From positions 1 through 9,288 of the forward strand of contig JALVIU010000289.1 of NCBI GenBank assembly GCA_027028665.1: a DNA stretch of 9,288 nt, given 5' to 3'. Made by a program: the position numbers and the translations under genes. Of this stretch, positions 1 to 3,777 are shown in pieces. Position 1 is the first letter of the stretch; each line of letters starts with the position of its first letter. The notes below the pieces were generated by a model. That model saw nothing but the letters and a program-made list of their open reading frames with translations, was not told the origin of the DNA and ran no database searches. This stretch comes from Candidatus Atribacteria bacterium. GTDB lineage: Bacteria > Atribacterota > JALVIU01.

Positions 1-754
1 CAGGTACTCTATAAGGGGTCTCAGTCCTTCTCCCAATAGGTAGTCCTAATTTATGCATAAAGTATCCAAAAGCCCTTGAAGAGACCTTTGTTGAGAATTC
101 CCTTGTATTAGTTATATATCCATCATCATTCCATGGAGTTTTTATTTTGATCTTTCTATCCCTTACATGTAAAGCGGAAGTCTTTATTCCTAAATCCTCA
201 AAATCCTTGATTAAGGCAACAAGCCCATCTTTTTCACCATAAAAGATTAAAGTAAGTCTATTAGAATTATATGAAAGAGAGGCATCTCCAAATGCAAAAC
301 CTAAGAGTCTTGCTATTTTCCCTATCATAGGATGATTATATGTAAAGGGGATGAGCCCTTTCTTCTCTAAAAAAGAGGCTATTTGTGAATCGTATTCTTT
401 AAAATCACCTCTGGCTAATATACTGTCCCCTTTTTCCTCATAAGGAACCCCTTCAAATGGATAGACTACAATTTGATCTCCCTCTTTTAAAGAGCTTAAG
501 TCTTTATATCCATTATCTGTCAATACAGGATGGGTACCACTACCCTCCATTTCTCTATCATTTTCGGTAATGATCCTCAAGGCAGGTTCATCTTTTTCCT
601 TTTGTGCTACAAATAGGATATTTGAACTATCATTATGCCCTTCATCTATATTATATATCTTAAGGTGTTTCTCAGAAATGCCTCTTTCCATAAGTTCAGT
701 TGGTAATACCCAATACCCTTCATCTGTCAAGATCTTAGTATCTGGGGCAATACA
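1..754 (-). mobile_element. Intein with LAGLIDADG homing endonuclease inside RtcB (partial)
   Basis: This is a protein-splicing element that should excise itself and rejoin the RtcB halves. It starts at Cys102 of the precursor, directly after GVGYDIN. Block A is [10 protein letters not shown] with a following G-Y (residues 102-115). Block B is G-S-G-T-H-P-V-L-T (172-180), with the block B histidine at H176. A typical end of the N-terminal splicing half follows: L-K-E-G-D-Q-I-V-V (190-198). After that, [10 protein letters not shown] (251-260) matches a first LAGLIDADG (DOD) helix with its acidic residue D258, and [18 protein letters not shown] near the edge is a sequence type usual in these endonuclease domains. 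251 intein residues are visible. The second LAGLIDADG helix, the C-terminal splicing blocks and the final Asn lie off the edge. The reading frame is intact throughout, so the element looks functional. Family knowledge: an intein at the same active-site cysteine is known in P. horikoshii RtcB. Confidence 0.93.
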
Positions 755-1057
755 GTTTATATCGTAGCCTACACCTCCAGGGGATATTACACCACCCTCT
801 TCCGGGTCAGTAGCACCTATACCCCCTATAGGAAAACCGTATCCCCAATGTATATCAGGCATAGCTATGGAGTACTTTTTTATACCAGGCAGGCATGCTA
901 TATTGGCAAGCTGGGTAAGGGCATTATCCAGAAGTGCCTTATCCAGAAGTTCCTCATCTGCATAGAATATCCCGGGAACCTGCATACAGGGGATAGTACC
1001 CTTAGGTATTATATATTTATACTCTTCTATCTTTTCTATGTCTTTTCTTGAGATCAT
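1..1057 (-). CDS. rtcB: RtcB RNA 3'-phosphate ligase, N-terminal part, interrupted by an intein (runs off left edge)
   Basis: RtcB joins RNA 2',3'-cyclic phosphate or 3'-phosphate ends to 5'-OH ends using GTP and Mn2+, in tRNA splicing or RNA repair in the cytoplasm. I read 352 codons open to the window edge. Residues 1-101 are RtcB N-terminal sequence, with [14 protein letters not shown] around residues 66-79 and PGGVGYDIN at 93-101. D99 corresponds to the Mn-binding Asp of the family (Asp95 in Pyrococcus horikoshii RtcB). The expected next residues, CGVRL, are replaced from residue 102 by an intein, so the C-terminal extein and the catalytic histidines lie beyond the left edge. The ATG at 1057 has AGAGGAGGT ending five bases upstream. 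It is transcribed divergently from the lipoprotein gene. No archease or rtcA gene is visible here. The gene is easy to miss because it has no stop codon inside the window. Confidence 0.95.
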
Positions 1058-1080
1058 ATATACCTCCTCTTACTTTTTGT

Positions 1081-1381: not shown

Positions 1382-1702
1382 GTGCAAAGGAGACACCTTT
1401 TTTTCATCTTTCTTATTGCATCAGTGCTTCTCTTTATTTTCTCAGGCTGTACAGGAAGCCAAGTGGCAGGCTACATTACTCTTGTAAGTGAAGATGAAAT
1501 TGCGGGTGGAGGCGTATGGCTAGACAATGAATATCAAGGAGTTGATTTAGAAGGAAATGGTAGCGTCACATTATATAATGTAACATTTGGGGCTCACCAC
1601 CTTGGTATAGGTTACAATAATGCCATTGATTATGGAACAATCTATGTAACTCATACAGGACAGACCTTCTATCTGAATGGGCAAGGGCAAGTACACGAAT
1701 AA
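1382..1702 (+). CDS. Small lipoprotein with a PEGA-like domain
   Basis: This is a 106-residue secreted lipoprotein of unknown role. Residues 1-22 are a short basic start (MQRRH) and a hydrophobic stretch ending in FSGC, a plausible lipobox. Cys23 would be lipidated after signal peptidase II cleavage; the -3 Phe is less usual than Leu. The mature part is only about 84 residues. It contains V-W-L-D-N-E-Y-Q-G (45-53) and a later V-T-F-G-A-H-H-L (67-74), the spacing of a PEGA-like beta fold in which a V-x-x-D-x-x-x-x-G strand is followed by a G-x-H turn. The start is GTG; a G-rich ribosome binding site and a strong promoter precede it, and no better start is present. It is monocistronic and converges on lrgB with a shared terminator. 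It is the only plus-strand gene here. The lipoprotein call is fairly sure; the PEGA call is by pattern only. Confidence 0.82.
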   Translation: MQRRHLFFIFLIASVLLFIFSGCTGSQVAGYITLVSEDEIAGGGVWLDNEYQGVDLEGNGSVTLYNVTFGAHHLGIGYNNAIDYGTIYVTHTGQTFYLNGQGQVHE

Positions 1703-1705
1703 TCC

Positions 1706-1742
1706 TTATAAAGAAGTAGGGGTAACCCCTACTTCTTTATAA
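1706..1742. terminator. Bidirectional terminator between lipoprotein gene and lrgB
   Basis: Two perfect 17-base arms (TTATAAAGAAGTAGGGG and its complement) flank a three-base loop, TAA. The GC core followed by TTCTTTATAA reads the same on both strands, so it can end the plus-strand lipoprotein transcript and the minus-strand operon. The lrgB stop codon (1729-1731) and its last codons lie inside the hairpin. There is no clean U-run beyond the stem. Confidence 0.85.
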
Positions 1743-2421
1743 ATAATTCCACTACCCAGATTACATATGGTGCAAAAATAGCTGTTGCAATTCCCATAAG
1801 AATAAATCCTACACCACTTGCAGCACCCTGAAGTATCCCCTCTTCCACAGCCCTTGCTGTTCCTATTCCATGTGATGTAATCCCCATGGATATTCCCCAC
1901 ACAATAGGATGATCTATCTTAAAGATTTTGAGAAATAAAGGGCCTAAAAGTGCACCTTCAATCCCTGTTATTATTACAAATACAGCGGTAAGTGATGGCA
2001 CTCCTCCCACAATTTCAGATACTTTCACAGCTATAGGTGTTGTTATAGATTTGGACACCATGGAGAGGGCCACTACCTCGGTACCACCAACTATCTTTAC
2101 AAATAGATAGGCAATAAGAATCCCTATTATTGAGGAAAGGGTAACGGTAGATATTATTTCAAAGAAATACCTCTTTATAATATCCCATTTCTTATATAAA
2201 AGATATGCAAGGGCGACTGTTGCAGGGTTTAAAAAAAATATAAAAACCCTTCCTCCTTCCCAGTATGTATTAAAATCTATACGGAATATCTCTATAAACA
2301 GGACTATAAGAATAGATGGCAAAAGCACAGGATGTGTAATAAAATTTCTGTAATGGCTATACAATCTCTTTGAAAGCCAGAAGGTAAAGAAGGTGATAAA
2401 GAAACCAAAAATCCACTTCAT
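1729..2421 (-). CDS. lrgB: LrgB/CidB family integral membrane protein
   Basis: This is the larger partner of a CidA/LrgA-CidB/LrgB pair. The family was described as modulating murein hydrolase activity and cell lysis; several pairs are now known to move pyruvate or related small acids. The 230 residues are at the usual family length. Recognisable blocks are NPATVALAYLLYK (65-77), SKSITTPIA (123-131), LTAVFVIITGIEG (144-156) and G-I-T-S-H-G-I-G-T-A-R-A (180-191), followed by GAASG (199-203). Most of the protein is hydrophobic, with several membrane segments. The ATG overlaps the lrgA stop by one base (TAATG), which suggests translational coupling. It is the last gene of a four-gene operon, and its stop lies inside the terminator hairpin. 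The family call is firm; the transported substrate or role is not visible. Confidence 0.93.
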   Translation of the reverse strand: MKWIFGFFITFFTFWLSKRLYSHYRNFITHPVLLPSILIVLFIEIFRIDFNTYWEGGRVFIFFLNPATVALAYLLYKKWDIIKRYFFEIISTVTLSSIIGILIAYLFVKIVGGTEVVALSMVSKSITTPIAVKVSEIVGGVPSLTAVFVIITGIEGALLGPLFLKIFKIDHPIVWGISMGITSHGIGTARAVEEGILQGAASGVGFILMGIATAIFAPYVIWVVELFIKK

Positions 2422-2795
2422 TATCTTTTTTTCCTTAACATAAGAAACCTAAAAAACCAAGATGCAAAAAAGAGAACAACAATATATGAGCCAAAAAGAG
2501 AAAAAGCTATCGCAATGGCTTCTTTCTTTAAAAGTGATTTATAAGTTATAATTTGTACAAGATATGGGATAAAAAATAGTATAAGATATCCAATAAGGAG
2601 GTTACTTGCATCCTCTATGATTTTCTCCTTTAAAATTCCTGTCTCCAACAAGAAAAACATGAGTATAAAACCTATTACATTCCCTGGAATAGAAAGATGT
2701 AGGAAATGTTGAATAAGCTCCCCTACAAGATAGATCCCATAAATAATAAAAAACCCTAACAGGATTATACTAAATTTCGCCAAATACTTCTTCAT
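2421..2795 (-). CDS. lrgA: LrgA/CidA family holin-like membrane protein
   Basis: This is the small partner of LrgB; the two are expected to act together in the cytoplasmic membrane. The 124 residues are of normal family length, with about four membrane segments. The family signature S-I-P-G-N-V-I-G-F (35-43) is clear, followed by LLIGYLILFFIPYLV (66-80), equivalent to the LL-x-x-M-x-L-x-F-V-P block of LrgA proteins. The C-terminus is strongly basic (RKKR), as expected for a cytoplasmic tail. The start at 2795 lies inside the end of the serine hydrolase gene (26-base overlap), with GGGAG placed four bases before the ATG within that gene. Coupled translation with its neighbours is therefore likely. 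It could equally be annotated as CidA or YohJ; sequence alone does not separate these names. Confidence 0.9.
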   Translation of the reverse strand: MKKYLAKFSIILLGFFIIYGIYLVGELIQHFLHLSIPGNVIGFILMFFLLETGILKEKIIEDASNLLIGYLILFFIPYLVQIITYKSLLKKEAIAIAFSLFGSYIVVLFFASWFFRFLMLRKKR

Positions 2796-3777
2796 GAAAC
2801 TCCCTTCTCAGTATCTGCATCTCTTCTTTGTGGATATCCTTTGGATGCACCCTATTTGTAAATAGTATAGCCACCCTTCCTACCTTACGAGAAAAGTAAA
2901 GAGATGTACCTGTATAACCTGTATGCCCAATAAGTTTCCCAAGTATTTGCCACCCAAGACCCCTATCGCTTTCAAGCCCTTTTGTATAATTTTTCTCCAT
3001 CTTACCTATTATAGCCTCTGACAAGATACCTTCTCCATAATTCAGGATCATCTTTGCATATCTATAGAGATCTTCTATCCTGGCAAAAAGACCTGCATTT
3101 CCTGATATCCCTTCGAGATGTGCGGCAAGGGGATCATGAACCACACCATGAATAAGTCCCCTCTCTGGGTCACACTTGGTAGGGACAATCTCATCCCTTT
3201 TTATACCATATTTAAGGGGTGTATATGTAATATGGTTCATGCCAAGTGGTTTATAAATCCACCTTTTTGCCACATTATAGGGTTCATCTTCTACTACCTT
3301 TTTCACAATATAAAAGAGTGTAACAAAATTGATACAACTATAGGTTACACCTTCTCCTGGTGTTTTCTCCAGGGGTTGGACAAGGACTTTTTTCATTACA
3401 TTATTCCTTCTTATACCCCTTAGATCCAGAAGGTATGAATAAAACCCTGATGTATGGGTAAGGAGATGGAGAAGGGTTATATCCCTTTTTTCAGAAGGTA
3501 GTTCAGGGAAAAATCTATAAAGTGTATCAGAGAGTGAGAGTTCCCCCCTATCTACAAGGATCATTATGAGAGGTGTGGTAATGAGTATCTTTGTAAGAGA
3601 TGCAAGATCATAATACATAGAATCCTTTATCCCTTTTTCATATGGGACAATCTGATAGTGGCCTAAAAAACCTTTTACTTCTACATGATCCTTATCTCCT
3701 ACAAGATATGTAGCGCCTGGAATAACCCCTTTTTGTATATATTTGTCTATAATCTCTCTTATTTTCTCTTCTCTCAT
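2770..3777 (-). CDS. Serine hydrolase, beta-lactamase / AmpC-like fold (PF00144 type)
   Basis: This is a 335-residue serine hydrolase of the class C beta-lactamase, esterase and D-Ala-D-Ala peptidase superfamily. The S-x-x-K motif is S60-L-T-K63 within LASLTKILITTP. LLTHTSGF (105-112) is the usual family block. The second motif is Y146-S-C148, where many relatives have YxN or YSD. The KTG-equivalent is H285-T-G287 within GHTGYTGTS, followed by LFTNRVHP (305-312), a block seen in a bacterial subgroup of cytoplasmic or surface hydrolases. GVVHDPLAA (211-219) and GNAGLFA (226-232) also match that subgroup. No signal peptide is present, so it is probably cytoplasmic. The ATG at 3777 has GAGGTGA upstream, overlapping the stop region of the AEC gene 9 bases away. 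Substrate unknown: ester, lactone, amide or a muropeptide are all possible. Antibiotic resistance is not implied. Confidence 0.9.
   Translation of the reverse strand: MREEKIREIIDKYIQKGVIPGATYLVGDKDHVEVKGFLGHYQIVPYEKGIKDSMYYDLASLTKILITTPLIMILVDRGELSLSDTLYRFFPELPSEKRDITLLHLLTHTSGFYSYLLDLRGIRRNNVMKKVLVQPLEKTPGEGVTYSCINFVTLFYIVKKVVEDEPYNVAKRWIYKPLGMNHITYTPLKYGIKRDEIVPTKCDPERGLIHGVVHDPLAAHLEGISGNAGLFARIEDLYRYAKMILNYGEGILSEAIIGKMEKNYTKGLESDRGLGWQILGKLIGHTGYTGTSLYFSRKVGRVAILFTNRVHPKDIHKEEMQILRREFHEEVFGEI

Follow-up and report, generated by a model that had tools for sequence, protein, structure and literature searches.

Does an intein lodged at the metal site of an RNA ligase regulate its host protein, or is it a mobile element that happens to sit there, and where did it come from? 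These questions are raised by an rtcB gene at the end of a contig from an uncultured bacterium. The DNA analysed here (the window) is the whole 9288-bp contig G000:C289 of an Atribacterota MAG of 1.79 Mb, 413 contigs and 90% completeness. Compared with other contigs of its MAG, it shows a tetranucleotide correlation of 0.981; with contigs of other organisms the values are 0.67-0.91, which makes bin contamination an unlikely source; the host of the gene is the Atribacterota MAG. Among the 50 Atribacterota genomes searched, there was no other member of the family to which the window's genome belongs.

The explanation that we hold with high confidence is that of a spliced LAGLIDADG intein at the ...DIN↓C site (arrows mark splice junctions) of an Atribacterota rtcB, a mobile element rather than a regulator of its host.

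An intein interrupts RtcB at its metal-site cysteine

Positions 2-1057 of the reverse strand hold an open frame of 352 codons, with an ATG start and no stop, which the left contig edge cuts. A probable ribosome-binding site, AGAGGAGG, can be read ahead of the ATG (1062-1072, reverse strand). The frame encodes an RtcB RNA ligase interrupted by an intein after GVGYDIN. It matches the Pfam RtcB family (PF01139) with E=7e-20, and together with structure matches this delimits an N-extein of residues 1-101 (755-1057, reverse strand) that ends in GVGYDIN. Residues 7-102 match the solved RtcB structures 2epg (E=3e-29) and 1uc2 from P. horikoshii (E=2e-27). In both, GVGYDIN-C is aligned, which places the metal-binding aspartate of the RtcB N-terminal domain at Asp99 (codon 761-763, reverse strand).

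P. horikoshii RtcB is itself the product of protein splicing, with its splice junction at Cys98 (PMC4150793). One of its Mn sites is formed by Cys98, His234 and His329 and the other by Asp95, Cys98 and His203; Cys98 thus ligates both Mn ions, while the nucleotide binds His404 (PMC10630183). Judging from the alignment, the insertion site in the window is that of P. horikoshii Cys98, and Asp99 is the counterpart of Asp95. The original prediction, an intein placed exactly at the RtcB cysteine and at the site known from P. horikoshii, is thus borne out by the open frame, by the intein models TIGR01445 and NF038162 and by the N-extein match to 1uc2 up to that cysteine. Its label of a catalytic cysteine has to be corrected: the residue is a Mn ligand, and the guanylylated residue is His404.

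The remaining 251 residues are the N-terminal part of the intein (2-754, reverse strand), delimited with TIGR01445, NF038162 and an alignment against 35 other RtcB intein sequences, from which all residue counts below are taken. It starts with Cys102 (752-754, reverse strand), the nucleophile at position 1 of block A in a class 1 intein; a cysteine stands here in all 35 other sequences. TIGR01445, the intein N-terminal splicing region, scores 36.5 bits over residues 102-180 (cut-off 24.5); this is the single match to the intein N-terminal model in the searchable assembly. Splicing block B reads SGTH (residues 173-176; 530-541, reverse strand), a conservative SxxH variant of the class 1 TxxH pattern: His176 is invariant (35/35), and the -3 position is Thr in 31 of the other sequences and Ser in four.

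The first LAGLIDADG-type homing-endonuclease motif follows at residues 248-259 (281-316, reverse strand), with its conserved acidic residue Asp258 (codon 284-286, reverse strand). G257 and D258 are common to all 35 aligned rows, and the next position is A in the window and G in 34 of the 35 rows. With Ser in place of Thr in block B and a final A instead of G in this motif, endonuclease activity may have been lost. Altogether, these residues describe a predicted standard class 1 intein, with Cys1 and of LAGLIDADG type, at the conserved ...DIN↓C site.

NF038162, the intein-containing RtcB family protein model, covers residues 7-352 with 404 bits (E=1e-120) over 343 of its 961 positions; its curated whole-protein cut-off of 1150 bits is out of reach for a frame truncated by the contig end.

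Elsewhere in the window, lrgA- and lrgB-type genes lie side by side (1729-3777), and a beta-lactamase-fold (PF00144) gene stands just upstream of lrgA on the same strand and overlaps it. A small lipoprotein-like frame of 106 aa (1382-1702, forward strand) has a GTG start and a hydrophobic N-terminus followed by FSGC; a Pfam search with it gave no match.

Full-length relatives outline the missing half

Because the contig ends inside the intein, the first LAGLIDADG motif alone lies in the window; the second falls beyond the edge, as do the C-terminal splicing blocks and the C-extein. A search of the own assembly for a C-extein with PF01139 and NF038162 returned only the window frame and a different RtcB paralog on contig C196. 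Such searches see the readable contigs, and the sampled contigs below 3 kb (six) read as N throughout, so that this absence is uninformative.

The expected continuation can be seen in bacterial and archaeal relatives of full length, at least 17 of them distinct, which carry HNF...VxN↓CGVR or CGIR followed by an RtcB C-extein. Relatives also have the C-extein histidines that bind metal and the guanylylated one (CHGAGR). Their frames are mostly about 945-1013 aa long, with an intein usually of 463-517 aa. At the intein end, HNF is followed some eight residues on by V(S/H)N and directly then by CG[VI]R. The original prediction of an intein end before CGVRL thus holds in the relatives, although their final pair is more often Ser-Asn than His-Asn. 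By analogy with these relatives, the window protein would have the C-terminal blocks, the +1 cysteine and a C-extein, and would be capable of splicing and homing.

The missing C-terminal part could also mean that the gene is a dead fragment, with intein or C-extein broken to the left of the contig edge, as no such part was found in the searchable assembly. We consider this very improbable, given 352 codons kept open, conserved splicing residues, and a fragmented MAG (413 contigs) whose sampled contigs below 3 kb read as N.

Same-site inteins are patchy in Atribacterota and widespread beyond

Inteins at the DIN↓C site occur in six of the 50 Atribacterota genomes: that of the window and G013, G023, G009, G019 and G047, which all belong to one family, other than the window's. 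Most of the remaining genomes have an intact, intein-free rtcB. Such patchy occupancy fits a mobile element. Beyond this phylum, the same site is occupied in Omnitrophota, Bacillota, Planctomycetota, Binatota, WOR-3 and Elusimicrobiota as well as in archaea, Thermoplasmatota among them. A bacterial host, initially read as suggesting cross-domain transfer or old retention, is therefore common for inteins at this site. As for a viral source, tblastn against 50,697 phage records gave no match, and viral contigs gave no confirmed one.

A divergent intein with several compatible origins

In sets without thermococcal and Methanocaldococcus sequences, the window intein is 19-28% identical to the archaeal sequences, and the bacterial sequences that match it best reach about 29-32%. 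Its best alignment reaches about 32% over the 251 residues, and one local match 35%. In intein trees built from sets of the same scope, the window intein forms a branch of more than two changes per column with no supported neighbours, and the inteins of G013, G023, G009 and G047 form a clade with that of one Clostridia bacterium (support 96/97). The window row is also a long branch in the N-extein tree, which contained two mis-trimmed rows (L022 and L116); both were left out of the set used for the AU test of the N-exteins. Grouping the window sequence with the other Atribacterota is not rejected by AU tests, either for the intein (p 0.48) or for the N-extein (p 0.74), and the trees thus demonstrate neither transfer nor vertical descent.

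That the intein arrived recently from archaea by cross-domain transfer is unlikely in our view. Archaeal RtcB genes do have inteins at the same site, and one control genome, most likely M. jannaschii, exceeds the NF038162 cut-off. However, there is no close archaeal sequence at the identities given above, and the partners of the long window branch are unsupported. The trees do not discriminate between an origin from archaea, an origin from other bacteria and old retention.

Further insertion sites in RtcB

A second intein site, site A (GYGF↓C...SN↓CIGGVAA), lies 25 residues upstream of DIN↓C. It is occupied by inteins of 508-509 aa in one Atribacterota and several Omnitrophota genomes, at loci L116 (G019:C79, 5665-7680), L117 (G019:C324), L022 (4105-7059), L206 and L208; G019 has inteins at both site A and DIN↓C. 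Site-A inteins cluster with the DIN↓C-site intein of the Omnitrophota sequence L013 (support 100/99), as if an intein had jumped between the two neighbouring sites.

Of 129 sequences, 90 have Pro directly after GYGF, 21 have Cys and 10 have Ser, and Cys is the only +1 residue seen with site-A inteins. This agrees with a report on another site, where a Pro at +1 blocks splicing (PMC10643990). We dropped the idea that the site-A cysteine is a scar of intein loss, as the sequences with Cys at this position are mostly without any intein.

L009 (CP070780.1, Omnitrophota bin17) encodes in one ORF of 1412 aa an RtcB that is interrupted twice: an intein stands at DIN↓C, and another, 412 aa long, at FYST↓C...VKN↓CHGAGR. 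The latter site adjoins the residue that we take to be the equivalent of the guanylylated His404. In another Omnitrophota sequence, L195 (G402:C53), two stretches of a 1510-aa frame match the window intein, which makes it probably another double-intein RtcB.

Expected splicing dependence without a sign of a switch

In the proposed mechanism, extein and intein would be translated as a single precursor chain, from which the intein would excise itself. Splicing would join Asn101 to the +1 cysteine of the C-extein, which would become the cysteine bridging both metal ions in mature RtcB. As the original prediction had it, the anatomy keeps Asp99 apart from the C-extein cysteine until splicing. Since the +1 cysteine would become metal-bridging only then, the precursor should lack ligase activity, and the ligase activity of the window protein should depend on splicing. 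The intein itself would persist as a mobile element and not as a host regulator; its probable means of spread is homing from one rtcB allele to another.

Full dependence on splicing, as first claimed, is therefore expected of the protein made from this gene, but a second RtcB-family frame exists in the genome, on C196. This frame has no intein, is cut by a contig edge and carries GTDIGCG and GGGNHF motifs. Its protein appears to be a member of another RtcB subgroup, so it weakens the dependence argument without abolishing it. Archease, an activator of RtcB, is encoded in the same genome. At L172 (G000:C307:2713-3111), a single frame of 302 aa carries a Mut7-C RNase domain followed by the archease domain, a fusion of an RNA nuclease with the RtcB activator.

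Could the intein serve as a conditional switch over RtcB activity, responding to redox state, metal or temperature? It does sit at a metal-binding cysteine, and precedents exist: conditional splicing has been described for P. horikoshii RadA (PMC5790916) and, under oxidants or zinc, for the mycobacterial DnaB intein (PMC6195587, PMC7360933). Nevertheless, the sequence bears no regulatory sign, most relatives in the phylum lack an intein, and the C196 gene is intein-free. Active-site insertion would likewise result from a mobile element that targets the most conserved DNA. We thus give a switch very little credence, and the earlier suggestion of one is left unsupported. The chance that metal or redox state controls splicing and, through it, the repair activity of RtcB in the uncultured host is slimmer still. 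A mobile intein remains our preferred reading.

Comparison with known RtcB inteins

The insertion site is already documented in archaea and many bacteria. To this known set of inteins at the metal-site cysteine of RtcB, the window intein adds a new, divergent member from a bacterial phylum that is uncultured. By itself, this single case changes little. The wider set, with three RtcB insertion sites, several phyla and both mini and full-length forms, could help to trace the spread of inteins and to ask whether insertion into an active site is tolerated or put to use.

The intein of P. horikoshii RtcB (PH1602) shares with the window intein the gene and the insertion point, the Cys98 junction. 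Unlike the window's host, P. horikoshii is an archaeal hyperthermophile, and the likeness is one of site and N-extein. The archaeal mini-inteins of G082 and G300 have the same site and the same splicing ends, but comprise only 133 aa and lack an endonuclease. The NF038162 family profile spans residues 7-352 continuously, extein and intein together, and the window provides the first 343 of its 961 positions. The other Atribacterota inteins (G013, G023, G047, G009 and G019) share phylum and site with the window intein. These are complete inteins of 483-512 aa with LAGLIDADG motifs that end in VSN↓CG[VI]R, and the window intein is about 29-30% identical to those of G013, G023, G009 and G047.
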